NCBI RefSeq assembly: GCF_004403065.1
Contig: NZ_SOHA01000036.1
Coordinates: forward strand, 1 to 64,000
Source of the DNA: Cryobacterium cryoconiti
GTDB taxonomy: Bacteria > Actinomycetota > Actinomycetes > Actinomycetales > Microbacteriaceae
DNA length: 64,000 bases
Direction: 5' to 3'
This document shows, piece by piece, positions 54,441 through 64,000 of this stretch. Numbering within the stretch: position 1 is the first letter of the stretch; each line of letters starts with the position of its first letter. The notes under the pieces were generated by a model that saw only the letters and a list, made by a program, of their open reading frames with translations, was not told where the DNA came from and made no database searches. The position numbers and the translations under genes were made by a program.

Positions 54441-55085
54441 CTATCTCTGGGTGAGTACCCCGTACAACAGGACATCGACGTGGGAGCGCAGGGTCGCCGT
54501 CAGTGTCTGGGGATCCTCGCGCCCGATACTGACGCGGATCAGCTCCATGTGCAGCGTGGAGAAGGTTGTTCGTGCCGCGCCGTTGAGGTCGACCCCCGGC
54601 CTCACCCAGGGGGTACTGGCGAACCTCCTCAGGATGTCCCCGATCGCCTTCTCGAGCTCGGAGATCCGGGCGAGCGCCTCGGTGCGGTACGGTCCCTGCT
54701 CGGCGCCGAAGAGGATTTCCCGCTGGTAGACGGCCGTGTTCTCGGGAAAGTCCGGCAGCGGATGGATCTGGGGTGCCAGCAAAGCCATGATCGCCTCGGT
54801 CGGCGAGGTGCCGGACGCGGCGGCGGCGATACCCTCGCGGGTGTCGAGCCGCATCCTCTCGTTCATGACCATCATCAGCAGTTCCCCCTTTGAGCTGGCA
54901 TAGCGGAACAGTGTGCCCGTTCCGACATCCGCCCGATCCGCGATCATCTGCGTCGTCACGGCCGAGTAACCCAATCCGGTGAACAGCTCGGATGCCGCCT
55001 CAAAGATCCGTTGCTGCTTGTCCGCCTTGTTGCGAGCCCGGCGGCCAACCGTTGCCAGCATTGGCGGCGCCTCCGATGGTGTCAT
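54441..55085 (-). CDS. TetR-family regulator, divergent from oleate hydratase genes
   Basis: 214 residues. The DNA-binding part is KADKQQRIFEAASELFTGLGYSAVTTQMIADRADVGTGTLFRYASSKGELLMMVMNE. The ligand domain is unassigned. I prefer ATG 55085 (MTPSEAPPM) because AAGGAG lies 8 bp upstream; ATG 55121 is an alternative. It faces the oleate hydratase genes across about 140 bp and may respond to fatty acids or to their acyl-CoA. Confidence 0.92.
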   Translation of the reverse strand: MTPSEAPPMLATVGRRARNKADKQQRIFEAASELFTGLGYSAVTTQMIADRADVGTGTLFRYASSKGELLMMVMNERMRLDTREGIAAAASGTSPTEAIMALLAPQIHPLPDFPENTAVYQREILFGAEQGPYRTEALARISELEKAIGDILRRFASTPWVRPGVDLNGAARTTFSTLHMELIRVSIGREDPQTLTATLRSHVDVLLYGVLTQR

Positions 55086-55160
55086 GGTCAACGCTCCTTC
55101 CGTCTGGGTTGCCTCGCTCATGGTTCCACGTTTTCGTGACCGATTTGCTCGATTCACAAA

Positions 55161-55190: not shown

Positions 55191-55228
55191 CCGGTTTGTC
55201 CGGAGTCAGCCGAGCGAGAGGAACGACC

Positions 55229-56821
55229 ATGACAATCGACCCGAAAGAGGCACACCTGTGGATCGTGGGTGGAGGGATCGCCGGGATGGCGACCGCAGCC
55301 TTCGCTATCAGAGACGCCGGGGTACCCGGTGAGAACATCCACATCCTCGAGGAACTGGGGCACGTCGGCGGGGCCATGGATGCCGTGGACTCTCCGGCAA
55401 TTCGTGGGGCCATGGTGACGCGCGGGGCCCGGATGTTCTGCGAAGAGGTGTACCAGACCACCTGGGACCTCTTCTCCACGATTCCTTCCCTGGAGGACCC
55501 GGATGTCACCGTTCGGCAGGAGATGCTGGACTGGAACGACAAGCACGAGACCCACGGCAAGACCCGGCTGGCCGATGCGCGGCACCGCATCTTGGATGCC
55601 ACGGATTACGGCCTGAACACACGCGACCGGTTTGAGATTTCGCGCATGCTCGCCCTGAGCGAGAAGGCCCTCGGCGCTCGTCGCATCGAAGATCTCTTCA
55701 GTGCGCACTTCCTGCAGACCAATTTCTGGCACATGTGGCGCACCACGTTCGCTTTCCAGAAGTGGAACTCCGCCGCCGAGCTTCGCCGCTACTTCCTGCG
55801 CTTCATCCAGGAGTTCGAGAACCTCGACACGCTCTCCGGGGTACGGCGGACCAAGTACAACCAGAACGACTCGATGATCGTGCCGCTCCAGCGGTGGCTG
55901 GTCGCTCAAGGTGTCGACGTGCGCTTCGGCACGCGCGTCACGGATGTCGACTTCACCAGCTCTCCCCGGCGGCGGCGCGCAACCTGCTTGCACGTAGAGG
56001 ATTCGGCCGGCAGCAGCGCAATCGACCTCGGCCAGAACGACCTCGCCTTCATCACCATCGGATCCATCGTCGCCGACACCACCTACGGCGGGAACGACAC
56101 CGTGCCGCCGCTGGTCCGGGACCGGGTGGACGGCAGCTGGTCACTCTGGGAGGAGCTGGCCAAGAAGGCCCCCGACTTCGGGCGCCCCAACACGTTCTGC
56201 GGCAACGTCGACGAGAGCAAGTGGGAATCGTTCACCCTCACGATGCACAGCGACGCGCTCATCAAGCGATGGGTGGAATACACCGGCAACGAACTGGGCA
56301 CCGGCGCCATGACGACGCTGGTCGATTCACCCTGGTACCTGTCGGCCGTCGTGGTGGGGCAGCCGCACTTCGCCAACCAGCCCGAGGGCACCTACACGAT
56401 GTGGGGCTGGGGGCTGGAGATCGACAACGAGGGCGGCTACGTCAAGAAGCGGATGTCGCAGGCGACCGGCACGGAGATCCTCACCGAGCTCATCCACCAG
56501 TTCGGCTTCGAGGACATCCTCGAGGAGGTGCTCGCCACGACGGATGTCACGACGTCGATGATGCCGTACGCCTCCGCACTGTTCGCCCGGCGCGTTCCCG
56601 GGGACCGCCCCAAGGTCATCCCCGACGGCGCGCAGAATTTCGCGTTCCTCGGGCAGTTCACCGAGCTCCCCGGCGACGTCGTGTTCACCGTGGAGTACTC
56701 GATCCACGGTGCCATGCACGCGGTGTACGAGTTCCTCGGGGTCGACCGGGAGATCCCGCCGATCTTCAAGGGCCTGCACGACCCAAAGGTTCTGGTCAAG
56801 GCGCTCCAGGCCGCCTACTGA
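55229..56821 (+). CDS. Oleate hydratase, copy 1
   Basis: 530 residues, the short actinobacterial form. FAD-binding GGGIAGMATAAFAIRD starts at residue 14. The family converts oleic acid and related cis-unsaturated fatty acids to 10-hydroxy acids by adding water. The region that in other subfamilies carries the catalytic glutamate (EGRE/GGRE) reads TRGARMF (64-70), so Met69 replaces it, as reported for the Rhodococcus erythropolis enzyme; the second Gly of RGGR is Ala here. ATG has GAGAGGA upstream. It is followed by a close paralogue. Confidence 0.94.
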   Translation: MTIDPKEAHLWIVGGGIAGMATAAFAIRDAGVPGENIHILEELGHVGGAMDAVDSPAIRGAMVTRGARMFCEEVYQTTWDLFSTIPSLEDPDVTVRQEMLDWNDKHETHGKTRLADARHRILDATDYGLNTRDRFEISRMLALSEKALGARRIEDLFSAHFLQTNFWHMWRTTFAFQKWNSAAELRRYFLRFIQEFENLDTLSGVRRTKYNQNDSMIVPLQRWLVAQGVDVRFGTRVTDVDFTSSPRRRRATCLHVEDSAGSSAIDLGQNDLAFITIGSIVADTTYGGNDTVPPLVRDRVDGSWSLWEELAKKAPDFGRPNTFCGNVDESKWESFTLTMHSDALIKRWVEYTGNELGTGAMTTLVDSPWYLSAVVVGQPHFANQPEGTYTMWGWGLEIDNEGGYVKKRMSQATGTEILTELIHQFGFEDILEEVLATTDVTTSMMPYASALFARRVPGDRPKVIPDGAQNFAFLGQFTELPGDVVFTVEYSIHGAMHAVYEFLGVDREIPPIFKGLHDPKVLVKALQAAY

Positions 56822-56911
56822 GCAGGCCCGGCGCCACCGCAAGAGGCCGGTGGCCTGGCTACCCGACAGCACCGCAGCACCGAAGCACGCACCAATTTGA
56901 AGGGAACGAAC

Positions 56912-58507
56912 ATGACCATTGATCCGAAGCAGGCCCACCTGTGGATCGTCGGCGGGGGGATCGCCGGCATGGCGGCCGCCGCCTTCGCCATCCGCGACGC
57001 CCAGGTGCCTGGGCCGAATATTCACATCCTCGAGGAGCTCGACGTCACCGGTGGGGGCATGGACGGGGCGAACTCCCCCGTGGTCCCGGGCACCTATGTG
57101 ACACGCGGCGGCCGGATGTTCGAGGAGCAGGCCTACCAGACCACCTGGGACCTCTTCTCCACGATCCCGTCCCTCGAGAATCCGGAGGTAACCGTCCGCC
57201 AGGAAACCCTCGACTTCAACGCCACGTTCAAGACCCATGCCCGAGCGCGCCTGGTCGATGCGCAGCACCGCATCCTGGACGCCTCGAGTTACGGCCTGAG
57301 CAACGGGGACCGGCTCGAAATGACTCGCATGCTGGCGATGAACGAAAAGGCCCTCGGCGCTCGCCGCATCGACGAAATGTTCGGGAAGCACTTCTTCGAG
57401 ACCAACTTCTGGCAGATGTGGCGGACCATGTTCGCCTTTCAGAAGTGGCACTCGGTCATTGAGCTGCGCCGCTACTTCCTGCGCTTTGTCCAGGAATTCG
57501 ACCTGCTCGACACGGTCGGGGGGATCTGCCGAACCAAGTACAACCAGTACGACTCGATGATCGTTCCGCTGCAACGCTGGCTCGTGGCCCAGGGCGTCGA
57601 CGTCCGCTTCGGCACGCGCGTCACCAATGTCGACTTCGCCGGCGCAGATCAGCCCCGGCGTGCCACGCGCCTCCACATCGAAGACTCGGCTGGAACCTCG
57701 ACGATCCCGCTCGGTCAGGACGACTTCACCTTCATCACCATTGGTTCCATCACCGCCGACACCACCTACGGCGGTAATGACACGGTGCCGCCGCTGATCC
57801 GCGACCGCGTCGACGGCGCCTGGTCTCTGTGGGAGGAGATCGCCAAGCAGGCCCCCGACTTCGGACGCCCCAATACCTTCAACGGCAACATCGACGAGAA
57901 CAAGTGGGAGTCGTTCACGCTGACGATGCAGAGCGATGTGCTACTCAACAGCATCATCGACTACACGGGCAACGAACCGGGAACTGGCGCGTTGACCACA
58001 TTCATCGAGTCGGGCTGGCACCTGTCGATGGTTGTGCCGGCCCAGCCCCACTTCCCCGACATGGCAGCGAACACCTACACATTGTGGGGCTACGGCTTCG
58101 AGATCGACGACGAAGGCGACTTCGTCAAGAAGCGGATGTCGCAAGCCACGGGCAAGGAGATCCTGACCGAGCTTGTCCACCAGCTCGGCTTCGAGGACAT
58201 CCTCGAGGAAGTGCTCGCCACCACGGACGTGACCACCGTGATGATGCCGTACGCCTCGGCCCTATTCAGCCGCCGAGTCCCGGAGGACCGCCCCAAGGTC
58301 ATCCCGGACGGTTCGCAGAACTTCGCATTCCTCGGCCAGTTCACCGAGCTGCCCGGCGACGTCGTCTTCACCGTGGAGTACTCCATCCATGGGGCTATGC
58401 ACGCGGTGTACGAGTTCTTCGGCGTCCAACGGGCGATCCCGCCGATTTACCGGGGGTTGCACGACCCCAAGGTCAGCCTGAAGGCCCTCAAGTCAGCGTT
58501 CAAGTGA
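56912..58507 (+). CDS. Oleate hydratase, copy 2
   Basis: 531 residues. By eye it is very similar to copy 1 along the whole length (e.g. identical KEALGARRI-like, EILTELxHQxGFEDILEEVLATTDVT and AFLGQFTELPGDVVFTVEYSIHGAMHAVYEF), so the pair arose by tandem duplication. Its motif is TRGGRMF (64-70), one Gly more canonical than copy 1. Differences cluster at the lid side (EELDVTGGGMDGAN versus EELGHVGGAMDAVD), hinting at different chain preference. ATG has GAAGGG 7 bp upstream. It is 90 bp after copy 1 and is followed by a strong terminator. Confidence 0.94.
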   Translation: MTIDPKQAHLWIVGGGIAGMAAAAFAIRDAQVPGPNIHILEELDVTGGGMDGANSPVVPGTYVTRGGRMFEEQAYQTTWDLFSTIPSLENPEVTVRQETLDFNATFKTHARARLVDAQHRILDASSYGLSNGDRLEMTRMLAMNEKALGARRIDEMFGKHFFETNFWQMWRTMFAFQKWHSVIELRRYFLRFVQEFDLLDTVGGICRTKYNQYDSMIVPLQRWLVAQGVDVRFGTRVTNVDFAGADQPRRATRLHIEDSAGTSTIPLGQDDFTFITIGSITADTTYGGNDTVPPLIRDRVDGAWSLWEEIAKQAPDFGRPNTFNGNIDENKWESFTLTMQSDVLLNSIIDYTGNEPGTGALTTFIESGWHLSMVVPAQPHFPDMAANTYTLWGYGFEIDDEGDFVKKRMSQATGKEILTELVHQLGFEDILEEVLATTDVTTVMMPYASALFSRRVPEDRPKVIPDGSQNFAFLGQFTELPGDVVFTVEYSIHGAMHAVYEFFGVQRAIPPIYRGLHDPKVSLKALKSAFK

Positions 58508-58791: not shown

Positions 58792-59253
58792 CTACGGGGT
58801 GACACCCTCGAGCAAAATCGCGAGCTCGTCGAATTCGACGTCCCAGCCCTCCCGGTTCTGCTCAAGACGTTCGCGACGGTACAGGGTGCCGCCGGGGAGT
58901 GTGTCGAAGCCCGATTCGACCACCGTGACATCCGTCCCGGTACCAGCATCGGCGATGGTGAAGCGCACGTGCGTCGCGTACTCGTCGAGCTTCTCGGCGG
59001 GGATTCCCGACCAACGGAAGCCGAACGAGCTGTCGGGCACCACCTCGGTGATTTCGATCGGGAAGCTGCCGTAGTCATCCCAGTGGATGCTGCCCGTAGC
59101 GCCGGGCTCGAGCGCGGCGAACACCACACCGTCTCCGAACCACTGGACCATCACCTCGGGGTCGGTCAGCGCCTTCCAGACGCTCGCGCGCGAGGCCTCG
59201 ATGTGCACGGTGCGGGTCACGGTGTGGCCCTTGATTCTTGCGTGATCAGACAC
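58792..59253 (-). CDS. SRPBCC (AHSA1-like) protein
   Basis: 153 residues. RTVHIEASRASVWKALTDPEVMVQWFGDGVVFA and the C-terminal GFDTLPGGTLYRRERLEQNREGWDVEFDELAILLEG are typical of activator-of-Hsp90-homologue (AHSA1/START-like) domains. These form a hydrophobic cavity; the ligand is unknown. GTG start chosen for GAAGGA 6 bp upstream. Confidence 0.88.
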   Translation of the reverse strand: MSDHARIKGHTVTRTVHIEASRASVWKALTDPEVMVQWFGDGVVFAALEPGATGSIHWDDYGSFPIEITEVVPDSSFGFRWSGIPAEKLDEYATHVRFTIADAGTGTDVTVVESGFDTLPGGTLYRRERLEQNREGWDVEFDELAILLEGVTP

Positions 59254-59442
59254 GGTGTTTCCTTCACAATCGGGCCGAGCGCGACGGGACATTGCCCGCC
59301 GAGCGGCACGTCAACTAGTTCTGCCAACGCACCTCCTCGAGCGTACTGTGGATGCGGGAAGCAGCCCAGGTTGGACGAAGGCGCCGACGGGCCGACGGGT
59401 CTCGTGCGGTTCGCCCGGTGGACGTTCCGGGTTTTCCCGCTT

Positions 59443-60186
59443 TCACCGCATTCCCACCGTGAGCGGCGCGGTCATGGCGCGGTGCTGGGCTTCGGTGTCG
59501 TGCTCGGCGAATCGACCTGAGAGTGCATATCGCATCAGGACCATGTCGCCGATCTGCCGGACCTCCGCGAGGGTCGCCCGCCGATCGCTGTTCCACGGAA
59601 ACACTCCGTCGCCGACGAATCGGGCGCCGCCGGCGTTGCCGAGGAAGAACGGTGCCATCGAAAGGTGGAGTTCGTCGACGAGATTCGCGGCCAGAAACTG
59701 GGTGTGGATCATGGCTCCTCCCTCGACCATGAGCTCGCCAATCCCGCGATCCCCCAGGTCCGCAACGAGGTCGGTCATCGTCACGTCGCCGCCCAGGCCG
59801 ACGACGACGGCGCCTCCGAGCCGTCGCCGGAGGCTTTCGGCGATCGGTGCGGGGCAGTACACCAGCCTGGTGGTGTCGCCTGCGGTGAAGAATGCGGCGT
59901 TCGGATCCAGATCGCCCGTCGCCGTCACCGTCACCTTCCACGGTGAACGGGCCAGGCCGGTGGTCTCTCGACGGCCTTGGCGGGCAACGCTGCGCACCAG
60001 CAGTCGCGGGTTGTCGCGCCGCACGGTGCGTGCCCCGATCAGAATGGCGTCGCTGCGTGCTCGCACCTCATCGACACGATCGAAGTCGTCGTCATTCGAG
60101 AGCGTGAGCCGTGGAGGACTCGCTGTGTCGAGATACCCATCGAGTGAGATGGCGCAACTCAGAGTGACGTAGGGCGTGACGCTCAT
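59443..60186 (-). CDS. RibD C-terminal/dihydrofolate-reductase-like protein (last gene of the operon)
   Basis: 247 residues. VTLSCAISLDGYLD, SDAILIGARTVRRDNPRLLVR and a GELMVEGGAMIHTQFLAANLVDEL segment match the reductase half of RibD, which reduces the ribosyl group of a pyrimidine in riboflavin synthesis. The deaminase half is absent. In this operon it would reduce a pathway intermediate. ATG has AGGAGGAG upstream and overlaps the stop of the membrane gene by 4 nt. The 59254-59442 gap after it holds no gene. Confidence 0.92.
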   Translation of the reverse strand: MSVTPYVTLSCAISLDGYLDTASPPRLTLSNDDDFDRVDEVRARSDAILIGARTVRRDNPRLLVRSVARQGRRETTGLARSPWKVTVTATGDLDPNAAFFTAGDTTRLVYCPAPIAESLRRRLGGAVVVGLGGDVTMTDLVADLGDRGIGELMVEGGAMIHTQFLAANLVDELHLSMAPFFLGNAGGARFVGDGVFPWNSDRRATLAEVRQIGDMVLMRYALSGRFAEHDTEAQHRAMTAPLTVGMR

Positions 60187-61244
60187 GATGTCTCCTCCTG
60201 GTCGAGAGCGGTCGGAATGAGGATGGATGCTGTGCGGGTCGGTGGCGTCGCCGATGACTCGCGCGGAAGCGTTCGGCGAGGCGTCCCCGGCATGGCGTGT
60301 TTCGATCCTCGCCGGCGGGCGGCGAAGACGGCGGCGACGACGGCCCCCGGCGCGATGGAGATGATGGCGAGCACGCCGAACAGGGTGGATGCTGCCACCC
60401 CCGCCGAGGCTCCGAAGCCGGTCAGTGCGAAGGCCCAACCGGCGATTCCCTCGCGCGGTCCCCAGCCGCCGATGTTCACCGGAATCGAGGCGCCGAGCAG
60501 GACGACCAGAGCGAGAGTGAGCATAGGCCCCGCCGGCACTCTCTCGCCCACCGCCGCGGTTGCGATCGTGAAGGTCGCCACATGGCAGCCGATCACGATG
60601 ACCGATGCGATCGCGACCTGCAGGGAGGTGCGAATCGACCCGAGGGCGGCGCGGAGTTCGTGCGCCTCACGCAGCAATGCCCGGCGCACGCGGGCGCTTG
60701 CCGCCGACGCCGCAGCAAGCGCTCCGATGACAACACCGAAACCGATCCCCAGCGCCGGCAGCAGGAATCCCTCGATCTCGGTGCCCAAATACGCCAGCAC
60801 CATCAGGGTCAGTGCGAGCTGAACGGCCTGCCCGGAGAAGCGTTCGATCGCGACTGCGCGTGCAGCTTGCCCGAGACGTGTTCCGCTCGGAACGCGGGTG
60901 ACGGCCCGTCGGATGTCCCCGATGATGCCGCCGGGAAGCATCATGTTCACGAACTGGGACTGATAGTACATTCCGACAGCAGTCGGCAGGCGCAGGGGGA
61001 TTCCCAGGCGCGACGCGATGAGTTGCCACCGCCACGCGGCTGCCACGGTTGCGGCCGCCGCGAAGAGGAGAGCCGCGACGATATTCGTACCGTTCAGGCT
61101 GAGGATGCCATCGATGAACGGGTCAGCGCCCACATGCGCGCCCACACCGACGAGAACGCCGCCGCCGACGATGAGACGAACGGTCCGGCGGAAGCCGGGA
61201 GAGTGAACTGCCCGGCGAAGCAGGGGTCGGATGGCGTGTGTCAT
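60183..61244 (-). CDS. Lysylphosphatidylglycerol-synthase-type transmembrane (flippase-like) protein
   Basis: 353 residues, about eight hydrophobic helices. It belongs to the UPF0104/AglD-like group, with FVNMMLPGGIIGDIRRAV, AVAIERFSGQAVQLAL and PVNIGGWGPREGIAGWAF as conserved loops. The catalytic synthase domain of MprF is absent, so it is more likely to translocate a lipid-linked product. The C-terminal tail is Arg/Pro/Thr-rich. It overlaps both neighbours by 4 nt. Confidence 0.9.
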   Translation of the reverse strand: MTHAIRPLLRRAVHSPGFRRTVRLIVGGGVLVGVGAHVGADPFIDGILSLNGTNIVAALLFAAAATVAAAWRWQLIASRLGIPLRLPTAVGMYYQSQFVNMMLPGGIIGDIRRAVTRVPSGTRLGQAARAVAIERFSGQAVQLALTLMVLAYLGTEIEGFLLPALGIGFGVVIGALAAASAASARVRRALLREAHELRAALGSIRTSLQVAIASVIVIGCHVATFTIATAAVGERVPAGPMLTLALVVLLGASIPVNIGGWGPREGIAGWAFALTGFGASAGVAASTLFGVLAIISIAPGAVVAAVFAARRRGSKHAMPGTPRRTLPRESSATPPTRTASILIPTALDQEETS

Positions 61245-62062
61245 CCGCGGGGCCAGGCCAGCAGGTCGACGTGACGGATGCGTGCGGCCAGCTCCCCGCG
61301 CGCGATCTGAGACAACCGCAGCCGGCGGTATCGGTCGACGTCGGTGCGCAGCCGGGGATCCTGTTCGATGGCGGCATCCACCCAGCCGTGAAACCACTCG
61401 ACCAGCAGGCGTTGCCGGCGGTGGTCAAGCCGCCATTCCGTCGTGCTCGGCCGCACAGTCCAACCGGCCGCCGTGAACAGTCCCCGCGCGATGGGCGCAC
61501 CATGCGGACCGAGCTGCCGGCGATCGTCGGTCAGTCGAAGTTGGTGCGCATTGAAGGCGGCCTCAAATGCTGCGTCCAGGTCGTCGCGAGGGCTGAAGCG
61601 AACCTGTCCAGTCACACTGAGCGACAGGAGAGCAGGGCACCTGGCCTCAACGCAGGCGTTCACGATCGTGTGGGTCTCGTGCGAGCTCAGCACGTCGAGC
61701 AATGCGGACGCTGTCACGAGTGACGCTCCCGCCAGATCGGACGGACGCAAGTCGGCGAGATCACCCGGCTGCGCGAGAACCGAGATCGCCACATTGTTCG
61801 CGTCCCTCGGACGCGTGCTGTCGATCGCCCGTTCGATCAGGTCCGCATTCCAGTCATGGAGAACCCACGTCTGGGGTCCGGGAAGGAGCGGAGCCAGCCA
61901 GCGCATCATCGAACCGGTCCCGCTGCCCAGATCGTGAACAATCACCGGACCCTCGGCGATCCTCGCGGCAGCTGCCAGCGCGAGGTCGTGTGATCGCGCA
62001 TCCGCGTCCTCCGGTTCCCGAAGAGCCAGCCAGTCCGCACTGACGAGAGGAATTCCGATCAT
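61241..62062 (-). CDS. SAM-dependent methyltransferase (class I)
   Basis: 273 residues. The SAM loop is VIVHDLGSGTGSMMRWLAPLLPGPQ, then WVLHDWNADLIERAI (acidic ribose contact). The C-terminal part has the AVEARCPALLSLSVTGQVRFSPRDDLD pattern found in small-molecule methyltransferases. ATG (MIGIPLV) overlaps the glycosyltransferase stop by 4 nt; the earlier frame start lacks support. Target unknown. Confidence 0.9.
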   Translation of the reverse strand: MIGIPLVSADWLALREPEDADARSHDLALAAAARIAEGPVIVHDLGSGTGSMMRWLAPLLPGPQTWVLHDWNADLIERAIDSTRPRDANNVAISVLAQPGDLADLRPSDLAGASLVTASALLDVLSSHETHTIVNACVEARCPALLSLSVTGQVRFSPRDDLDAAFEAAFNAHQLRLTDDRRQLGPHGAPIARGLFTAAGWTVRPSTTEWRLDHRRQRLLVEWFHGWVDAAIEQDPRLRTDVDRYRRLRLSQIARGELAARIRHVDLLAWPRG

Positions 62063-63138
62063 GCGGACACCGCCATTCCACTGAGTGCCATCTCGTCGAG
62101 CGTTGATGCAATGGCAGCGACTGTCGCGCTCCAGGGTCGGACCGATCCGCGAGCCTCCACCGCGGCCTCGGTGAGCCGCGACCTCTGGGCCCGACTGGCC
62201 CACCAGCGGCGCAGCACCACTGCGAGGGCCTGCGCATCGTCCGGCGGGACAAGGATTCCTGCCGTCATGCTCGATAAGGCTTCGGGTATGCCACCGACGC
62301 GGGCGGCCACGACGGGGATGCCCCGTGCCAGCGCCTCCGCGACAACCATGCCGAAGCTCTCGCTTCGGGACGGCACCACGACGAGGTCAGCTCGGGCGTA
62401 TGCCTCGTCCAGTCGTGCTCCGGCGAGAGAGCCGGTGAACGTTACCCTGTCGGTGAGGCGAGTCCGGTGGGCCATCCGCGTCAGCTCGTCGACGAAATCC
62501 GTTGCAATGTCGAGTGATCCGGCAAAGGTGCACGTCCACCCGTCGATGTCGGTGAGCTGCGCCAGGGCGCCGAGGAGAACGTCCTGACCCTTGTGCGGGG
62601 CGACCGCGCCAATACACAGCAGCCGGTTGCCAGATCGTGAAGCACTCGTCGGGGCGGCCGGATCCGTTCCGGGGTAGGCGACGATCACGTCGGGGGGCCG
62701 ACCGAGGCGGCGCGCGATGATTTCGGACCGTGTCCATCCGCTCGTTGCGATGATGCGTTTCGCCGCGCGAAATGCGTGTCGCTCACGATCGGCAGACACG
62801 GCATCGGCTTCCGCTAGTGCCGCTGAGACGACATTTCCGACCATGTGCGCCAGGATGATGAGCCGGAGCCGGGTGGAATGTGCCCTCAACGCCACCGATT
62901 CGCGCACAGCGACCAGACCATCGACGAGTGCGAGGGCGCCGTTCGGCAGCTGGGCCAGGGTCTGAGCCGTCAGCGTGTGATCATCCCGCGGAATCAGAAC
63001 CGTGTGAACCGTCCAGCCGCTGCGTCGAAGCCCCTCGCGAACGTGACGGTCGTAGACATTGCCGCCGCTGACCCTGTCCGCGTCGTCGATCGAATCAGGG
63101 ACGAAGAAGCACACCCACCGTGCCGAGGAGACGCTCAC
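62059..63138 (-). CDS. Glycosyltransferase, family 4 (GT-B fold)
   Basis: 359 residues. Donor-side motifs: [56 protein letters not shown] (EX7E in ESFGMVVAE). The N-terminal acceptor domain starts with [28 protein letters not shown] start, overlapping the upstream stop as GTGA. It would transfer a sugar to the pathway product. Confidence 0.93.
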
Positions 63139-63533
63139 GGTGCCCTCGTGTAACTTGCCCACGCAATGTGCGACTCGTGGAGCGTGACCGTGATGGACTG
63201 AAACTGCTGGCCGGGGGCGAGAGCCCCCGAGGTCACCTGTTCTGCCAGGCGATCCGCAATCACCTTGCAGAGCACTTCGGTGGTCGTGTTTCTGCCGGCG
63301 AAACGAGGATCCTCGTCGAGGTTGCGATAGGTGAGAGAACCCGTGATCTCTGCAAGCGCGGCAGTCACCCTTCCGATGTCCACCACGACGCCGTCGGCGT
63401 CCAGGTCGGTGGCCGCGAAGGAGGCGTCGACGACGAATGTGGCTCCATGGAGTTGTTGCGCGGGCCCGAACGATTCGCCGGCGAGGCTATGGGCGATCAT
63501 CATGTGGTCCCGAACCGTCACCGTGAATGTCAT
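63135..63533 (-). CDS. 6-pyruvoyltetrahydropterin synthase/QueD-like protein with altered active site
   Basis: 132 residues. The T-fold pattern is clear: MIAHSLAGE (zinc His15), QQLHGATF (His29), [35 protein letters not shown] (Glu that binds the pterin) and [13 protein letters not shown]. But the zinc motif is HGA instead of HGH (Ala31 for the third His) and the catalytic Cys before it is missing (FGPAQQ), so the usual lyase chemistry is unlikely. ATG 63533 overlaps the dehydrogenase stop by 4 nt. Confidence 0.85.
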
Positions 63534-64000
63534 TCTGGTCCTCCCCAACTGATTGTGTGACACAGGGTGTTCGGCGCTCCGTTGGCCAGACCCGTCATCA
63601 CCTCGGGGAGATCATGCCAGCAGGATTCGTCCGTCAGCAAGGCCTCGAAGGCCGGGTCTTGGAGAAGGTCCAGGGCCAGCACGAGGCGTTCCCGCGTCGT
63701 ACGGTTCCGCCGATGGCCCGCGGCTACCGCGCCGACCTGGCTCGACCGGATGGTCAGTCGCCGTGAGTGGAAGTCGGTCCCGAGCCTGAGTGTGGCCGGG
63801 CGATCTCCGTACCAGCTCGCCTCGATCACGTCACCGTCGGTGACCACGGTTTCGAGTGCGAGCTGCAAACCGGCATCCGAACCACTCGTATTGATCACGA
63901 TGTCCCGGTTGCCCGGGGGGCTGGACGCGTCGGCGAAGCCCACGCCAAGTTGGTCCGCCACCTCCTTCCGTGCCGGGTTCACGTCGATTAAAGCCACCTC
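63530..64000 (-). CDS. Zinc-type alcohol dehydrogenase-like protein (N-terminus outside the window)
   Basis: The C-terminal ~156 residues of a medium-chain dehydrogenase: [19 protein letters not shown] is the Rossmann strand and helix, then [30 protein letters not shown] and [32 protein letters not shown]. The frame is open to the window edge, so the gene starts beyond it. It is the first visible gene of the six-gene overlapping operon; more genes may lie upstream. Confidence 0.85.

Follow-up and report, generated by a model that had tools for sequence, protein, structure and literature searches.

T-fold proteins of the 6-pyruvoyltetrahydropterin synthase (PTPS) and QueD type use dihydroneopterin triphosphate as substrate. 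The archaeal entry into riboflavin synthesis proceeds through GTP cyclohydrolase (GCH) III, known as ArfA, followed by ArfB and ArfC, and leads from guanosine triphosphate (GTP) by way of a formylated pyrimidine (FAPy) to 2,5-diamino-6-ribosylamino-4(3H)-pyrimidinone 5'-phosphate (APy) and then to a ribityl compound. In the phosphatidylinositol mannoside and mycothiol pathways, a family 4 glycosyltransferase (GT4) takes a polyol phosphate, and the former pathway also includes a CDP-alcohol phosphotransferase. The canonical QueD/PTPS motif is given as CxxxHGH, or as CxxxxxHGH or ExxHGH, in a paper that calls the function of the COG0720 subfamily PTPS-V unclear (PMC5041015). Here we describe an operon at the end of the first 64,000 bases (the window) of an 83,506-base contig (C42) in the 3.43-Mb genome of Cryobacterium cryoconiti, which encodes a dehydrogenase, a T-fold protein, a GT4, a methyltransferase, a UPF0104 membrane protein and a RibD-type reductase. 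With a probability of about 0.5, this operon represents one form of an uncharacterised pathway leading from ring-opened GTP to a sugar-decorated product, joined to a lipid or polyol and translocated across the membrane.

The six minus-strand genes span positions 59443-64510 once the sequence is extended beyond the window, and all five junctions are 4-nt overlaps (ATGA four times, GTGA once), confirming the coupled arrangement reported in a preliminary description of the window. The gene identities named there are likewise supported by Pfam, with the methyltransferase and the dehydrogenase scoring under the cut-off (Table 1). A GTP cyclohydrolase gene had been expected just past position 64000; the next gene instead encodes a divergent CDP-alcohol phosphotransferase, and the only GCH II lies on another contig.

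Conservation of the locus was followed in public genomes (the best 80 of 331 relatives), in an order-level search, which is less biased than this best-80 scan, in a phylum-level profile search and in a plasmid collection. Among the 80 scanned loci, GT4 is matched in 79, the dehydrogenase in 77, the methyltransferase and UPF0104 in 72 each, the CDP-alcohol phosphotransferase in 67 and the RibD-type reductase in 55, the last count taking in weak Streptomyces matches. The order-level search matched the T-fold protein in 47 of 297 genomes, and 46 loci, the window included, were kept. Before counting, a chance-like 32-residue match (G118, E 4.5e-4) and a locus with a T-fold gene and no dehydrogenase (L182; L numbers are our locus labels) were dropped, and L103 was retained though the T-fold gene is its sole matched gene. 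The dehydrogenase gene adjoins the T-fold gene on the same strand, with a gap below 600 nt, in all 46 loci of this sample, some of whose stretches stop at a contig end. The other genes are matched less often: GT4 in 45, the RibD-type reductase in 32, the methyltransferase in 29, the CDP-alcohol phosphotransferase and GCH II in 26 each, UPF0104 in 22, an LtaS-like membrane protein in six and a creatininase-family protein in none.

Beyond this range, the phylum-level search gave matches in 33 of 396 genomes at 1e-15 or better, a figure that includes divergent T-folds such as that of L182 and is therefore no clean count of systems. From these 33 genomes eight places were fetched; four of these come from one family of deeper Actinobacteria (f34, with 21 matches), and all four have their genes in the order RibD, dehydrogenase, T-fold and GT4. 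The plasmid collection holds 26 matching records, some of them actinobacterial, and in all 19 that were fetched the dehydrogenase gene lies directly upstream of the T-fold gene. Six Rhizobiaceae plasmids hold the full set (sulfatase/LtaS-like, flippase, CDP-alcohol phosphotransferase, GCH II, core pair, GT4, methyltransferase and RibD-type genes), and the gammaproteobacterium Thiodictyon has the core together with RibD-type, CDP-alcohol phosphotransferase and cytochrome b561 genes. Haloarchaeal T-folds are 27-29% identical and the adjoining dehydrogenases 32-35%; the T-fold genes sit after the dehydrogenase gene and before a GT4 or methyltransferase gene, with GT4 adjacent in L184 and L192.

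This order of the core genes is met again across three phyla and two domains, a wider conservation than the actinobacterial one that the preliminary description had proposed to look for, and the pathway seems to be a compact, uncharacterised one common to Actinobacteria, Alpha- and Gammaproteobacteria and haloarchaea. This recurrence contradicts the view that unrelated genes came to share a promoter by accident. The sole point in favour of that view, which we find hardly credible, is the patchy occurrence of the operon at family level: it is absent from both same-genus genomes listed and from most of the same-family genomes listed. In line with the earlier remark that no described pathway with this exact set was known, we found no description of the gene set in open-licence PubMed Central papers, most subscription papers lying beyond the reach of the search.

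Three kinds of module that open the ring of GTP neighbour the core in relatives: a GCH II whose switch residue is Tyr, a GCH II whose switch residue is Met together with a creatininase-family gene, and GCH III. The dehydrogenase/T-fold pair, usually with GT4, is the constant part across all three. GCH II is found in 61 of 81 loci, with Tyr in 34, Met in 26 and one (L077, which has a creatininase gene) not resolved by pattern. A creatininase-family gene accompanies 26 of 26 Met-type loci but none of the 34 Tyr-type loci; L045 has the creatininase gene, with GCH II unmatched in its stretch. All 26 GCH II proteins of the order sample are of the Tyr type (25 by pattern, L121 by eye), as are, by eye, four proteobacterial ones, in whose stretches no creatininase is annotated. 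GCH III occurs in three of six haloarchaeal loci, all on Haloarcula plasmids, where its reading frame overlaps the dehydrogenase gene (PF05165, 3.4e-81, in L191; by annotation in the other two). This linkage to ring-opening enzymes supports the GTP-derived substrate proposed earlier.

Met-type GCH II reportedly makes FAPy, and a Met-to-Tyr change is said to restore APy formation. In Sinorhizobium meliloti, the creatininase-family protein BrbF deformylates this kind of intermediate in the riboflavin pathway (PMC9478397), and the pattern described above fits a deformylase being supplied where GCH II stops at FAPy. FolE (GCH I) was matched in none of 150 loci by tblastn with the FolE of the genome itself, which has one GCH I, and the positive control was found; FolE2, QueC and QueE were not searched. 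Because three ring-opening modules accompany the core and FolE is matched in 0 of 150 loci, APy is favoured over dihydroneopterin triphosphate, and the precursor is likely the opened diaminopyrimidine (APy or FAPy) of the riboflavin branch point rather than dihydroneopterin.

A specialised flavin, deazaflavin or 7-deazapurine, made by a branch of riboflavin, F420 or queuosine synthesis, would also draw on these families, as both the RibD-type reductase and GCH II come from families of the riboflavin pathway and QueD belongs to the T-fold superfamily. Such a product is very improbable in our view. The genome's own type of riboflavin synthase matches only L182 of the 150 loci, a locus without the dehydrogenase (lumazine synthase was not searched), FolE is likewise unmatched, and the T-fold protein fails both the QueD cut-off and the QueD motif. 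Moreover, the genome has a separate rib operon; its GCH II gene adjoins genes resembling ribE and ribD (translations, by eye).

The T-fold protein itself departs from the canonical pattern. LHG[AV]T replaces CxxxHGH in 111 of 125 T-folds (two are odd, and 12, left unexamined, fall outside the pattern); the window protein reads LHGAT, which is invariant in a 31-row alignment, and four haloarchaeal T-folds read HSH, retaining HxH. A Y-x-NLD motif is conserved, presumably in the place of the canonical Asp-His dyad, and the Glu close to the C-terminus is retained. Scores for QueD (42.9 vs 89.25 bits) and 6PTHBS (33.3 vs 125.5 bits) are under the curated cut-offs, and together with the loss of the motif they led us to reject a QueD/PTPS function. 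The PTPS-type pterin step of the preliminary description is not supported, given the family-wide motif loss, these scores and the FolE result. An AlphaFold model (pLDDT 88.7) has PDB entry 3d7j as its top fold match (TM score 0.93), with QueD structures next; structure prediction upheld the T-fold. The 3d7j protein, SCO6650, is labelled uncharacterised and is also close in sequence (E 1.2e-49; 62% identity in the fold search). The genome holds a single PF01242 match, and its product probably binds a guanine-like ring and differs from QueD.

Zinc-dependent alcohol dehydrogenases of the medium-chain dehydrogenase/reductase (MDR) type usually have Cys and GHE at the catalytic zinc-ligand sites. 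At these sites, a strict pattern recovers SxGTE in 88 of 107 operon-type dehydrogenases and YGY occurs in 102 of the 107, and four haloarchaeal versions contain a total of 1-2 Cys each. The methyltransferases keep an hDLGxGtGsm motif in a 76-row alignment, and a Rhizobium homologue (30% identity) matches Methyltransf_25 above the cut-off (3.3e-10). The top NCBIfam score of the GT4 is MshA, far under the cut-off (93.7 vs 462.5 bits). The closest PDB sequence relatives of the RibD-type reductase are 5xux and 6p8c; the residue after SxDG was considered as a diagnostic in this protein and dropped, as the lineages disagree.

The CDP-alcohol phosphotransferase is linked to the core in Actinobacteria, Proteobacteria and haloarchaea, and points to a phosphodiester or lipid. 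The residues of the D-x2-D-G-x2-A-R-x8-G-x3-D-x3-D consensus are retained in at least 95% of 61 aligned rows, and the motif is likewise kept by the Rhizobium and Thiodictyon proteins and by two from Haloarcula. Family scores are weak and under the cut-offs (PssA and archaetidylinositol-phosphate synthase; PgsA as best for the Rhizobium protein). PgsA takes a polyol phosphate as acceptor. In MprF, a flippase-like part moves a modified lipid, and by analogy UPF0104 would fit the movement of such a lipid. The CDP-alcohol phosphotransferase, UPF0104 and LtaS-like genes, present in many but not all relatives, suggest that the product may be a glyco(phospho)lipid. In the Haloarcula clusters, oxidoreductase genes (annotated as aldo/keto reductase or Gfo/Idh/MocA) lie at or near the CDP-alcohol phosphotransferase gene.

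The LtaS-like gene, found in 32 of 81 loci, raises a further possibility, namely that the GTP-derived headgroup decorates a surface polymer, being moved by the LtaS-like enzyme to a glycan much as teichoic-acid synthesis uses phospholipid donors. The six Rhizobiaceae clusters contain it, either under a sulfatase annotation or recognised by similarity, and the CDP-alcohol phosphotransferase is fused to it in four loci; a fusion in most Micromonospora was rejected, since the open reading frames overlap and both motifs share one frame in these four loci only. The C-terminal part of the protein has no Pfam match. Its model (pLDDT 71.7) has LtaS, LtaP and EptC-type phosphoethanolamine transferases as top folds, with sulfatases lower, and a Rhizobium homologue (34% identity) reaches the sulfatase family slightly under the cut-off (5.4e-5). 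The gene goes unmatched, however, in 40 of 46 order-sample loci and in 27 of 28 Streptomyces loci as well as in the window genome (searched without a positive control), and we hold polymer decoration to be decidedly unlikely.

More weight attaches to a soluble product, a glycosylated pterin or pyrimidine that is secreted or cytoplasmic, with the CDP-alcohol phosphotransferase and flippase serving a side function. Haloarchaeal halopterins resemble such a product, and GT4 adjacency in the two haloarchaeal loci named above agrees with it. Cyanobacteria have pterin glycosides (PMC13259868). Minimal loci without lipid genes also favour this alternative: eight (L134, L138, L140-144, L151) have dehydrogenase, T-fold and GT4 genes only, L124 is alike but cut by a contig end, L125-128 add a methyltransferase and L133 has the dehydrogenase and T-fold genes only. 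Against it stand the linkage of the CDP-alcohol phosphotransferase in 67 of 80 scanned loci and in Proteobacteria and haloarchaea, and the failure to match FolE, usually needed for neopterin-type pterins, in any of the 150 loci. On balance, we consider a soluble product somewhat unlikely. Among the minimal loci, L133, L134 and L140 adjoin a upp-like gene, and L134 and L140 also adjoin a gene resembling tRNA adenosine deaminase (both judged visually, on their first 40 residues).

Starting from the observed gene content, linkage, conservation and loss of the canonical motif, we propose the following chemical steps, their order and a lipid as end point for the pathway from ring-opened GTP. GTP would be opened to APy, in many relatives by a dedicated enzyme and in the window genome presumably by RibBA of the riboflavin operon. 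The RibD-type reductase would convert APy to the ribityl compound or act on a later intermediate, and the T-fold protein would use its conserved Glu to hold a 2-amino-4-oxo-pyrimidine or pteridine ring, with PTPS/QueD chemistry absent. The dehydrogenase may oxidise or reduce the side chain, the GT4 would attach a sugar and the methyltransferase a methyl group. The CDP-alcohol phosphotransferase would then couple the product to a lipid or polyol through a phosphodiester, UPF0104 would carry it across the membrane, and in some relatives the LtaS-like enzyme may work on it outside. Of the earlier scheme, in which a GTP-derived molecule is built, reduced, methylated, glycosylated and exported, glycosylation, methylation and translocation remain a plausible theme; the pterin step does not.

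A more specific form of this proposal is unlikely as it stands: a GTP-derived phospholipid that is glycosylated, methylated and anchored in the membrane, for which ribityl (alditol) phosphate would be the acceptor of the CDP-alcohol phosphotransferase and which UPF0104 would flip once finished. Next to the RibD-type gene, four proteobacterial clusters carry cytochrome b561 genes, confirmed by Pfam in L186 and L174 and known by annotation in L188 and L189. A redox-active headgroup, serving as a membrane electron carrier, would fit their presence.

Several results weigh against the pathway as proposed. RibD-type, GCH II and CDP-alcohol phosphotransferase genes are all unmatched in 14 of 46 order-sample stretches (the minimal loci listed above), and the last is unmatched in 20 of 46; the lipid part may for this reason be optional. 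The sole GCH II of the window genome, with Tyr at the switch residue, is encoded away from the operon, and none is beside it. The RibD-type reductase has as its top NCBIfam model the archaeal reductase TIGR01508, at 118.6 bits against a cut-off of 186.45. Because all 26 Met-type loci are from Streptomyces, the association of Met with creatininase amounts to about one evolutionary event; a Streptomyces creatininase (L050) scores best with MftE, under the cut-off (133.9 vs 172 bits), and at 29.8 vs 180 bits with ArfB, and for FAPy formation by the Met-type enzyme the proposal relies on what is reported of it (Spoonamore 2006). The structure matches of the LtaS-like protein are weak (TM about 0.3-0.4), and a search of the window genome, run without a positive control, left it unmatched.

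Downstream, the operon adjoins a gene for an AHSA1/SRPBCC-domain protein, which probably lies outside the unit since it is unmatched in the other 80 loci. Further along are two tandem oleate hydratase-like genes with an adjoining divergent TetR regulator. On the far side, a candidate anti-phage system lies beyond the window; it consists of ABC-three-component type genes (CTD10, DUF2326) and then a HIRAN-domain gene. Promoters and terminators were predicted no more often than in shuffled sequence, Rfam gave a single tRNA and nothing else in the extended 19-kb locus, and a phage search gave no match.

Table 1. Operon genes, neighbouring genes and further genes named in the text. Positions follow the window numbering unless a locus label precedes them.
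Feature	Position	Strand	Size and evidence
MDR-type dehydrogenase, operon gene 1	63530-64510 (in window 63530-64000; L002 9531-10511)	-	326 aa; ADH_zinc_N 1.7e-4, under cut-off
T-fold protein, PTPS/QueD superfamily	63135-63533	-	132 aa; PTPS PF01242 1.1e-24
GT4 glycosyltransferase	62059-63138	-	359 aa, GTG start; Glycos_transf_1 PF00534 1.4e-32
Class I S-adenosylmethionine methyltransferase-like protein	61241-62062	-	273 aa; Methyltransf_25 4.8e-4, under cut-off; DLGSGTGS motif
UPF0104 / LPG_synthase_TM flippase-like membrane protein	60183-61244	-	353 aa; PF03706 2.4e-26
RibD C-terminal-type (ArfC-like) pyrimidine reductase	59443-60186	-	247 aa; RibD_C PF01872 2.5e-43
CDP-alcohol phosphotransferase, divergent, outside window	64562-65341 (L002 10563-11342)	+	51 nt from dehydrogenase start; PF01066 5.6e-12
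AHSA1/SRPBCC-domain protein	58792-59292	-	
Oleate hydratase-like genes, two in tandem	55196-58507	+	MCRA family; NF010584 above cut-off
TetR regulator	54441-55157		
ABC-three-component type and HIRAN-domain genes, outside window	67434-71265 (L002 13435-17266)		PADLOC PDC-M68B 4e-105 (ABC-three-component genes)
Cytochrome b561 genes	L186 11023-11562; L188 11052-11579; L189 11008-11541; L174 11525-12082		
Haloarcula oxidoreductase genes	L184 1916-3886; L191 2640-4379; L196 2640-4379; L197 3024-4373		

A compact gene set that extends from Actinobacteria to haloarchaea and occurs in 26 plasmid records probably yields something useful. The pathway offers a candidate role for two orphans, the structure 3d7j (SCO6650) and Met-type GCH II (reportedly a FAPy former), and three ring-opening enzymes tied to one core indicate the starting metabolite. 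Should the lipid reading hold, the product would be a membrane lipid of a new class, its headgroup derived from GTP, and, in the phospholipid form of this reading, related lipids would be shared by bacteria and haloarchaea.

Among known loci, that of SCO6650 in Streptomyces coelicolor encodes a T-fold ortholog of the window protein. Other Streptomyces loci share the same core and add Met-type GCH II and creatininase genes, both of which the window lacks. From numbering and layout we infer that SCO6655 is part of the SCO6650 cluster; its protein reportedly makes FAPy (Spoonamore 2006). A published list enters SCO6655 as a GTP cyclohydrolase II (PMC2853524). The likeness to BrbF lies in the creatininase-family gene found with all 26 Met-type GCH II genes; BrbF is a deformylase that serves riboflavin synthesis (PMC9478397), whereas the Streptomyces creatininase is best matched to MftE. 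With the archaeal riboflavin entry, the operon would share the route from GTP through FAPy and APy to a ribityl compound, and GCH III is present in three Haloarcula clusters; it differs in the neighbouring genes, which encode a T-fold protein, a dehydrogenase, a methyltransferase and a CDP-alcohol phosphotransferase, not riboflavin synthase. QueD and 6-pyruvoyltetrahydropterin synthase have in common with the window protein the T-fold, the conserved Glu and the superfamily match, but this protein lacks CxxxHGH, scores below the equivalog level and has no linked FolE. Finally, the phosphatidylinositol mannoside and mycothiol pathways resemble the operon in their GT4, for which MshA is the top score, and in the CDP-alcohol phosphotransferase, yet the GT4 is far under the MshA cut-off and the headgroup of the operon product would be GTP-derived: where PgsA uses glycerol phosphate as acceptor, the proposed counterpart is the ribityl (alditol) phosphate of opened GTP.

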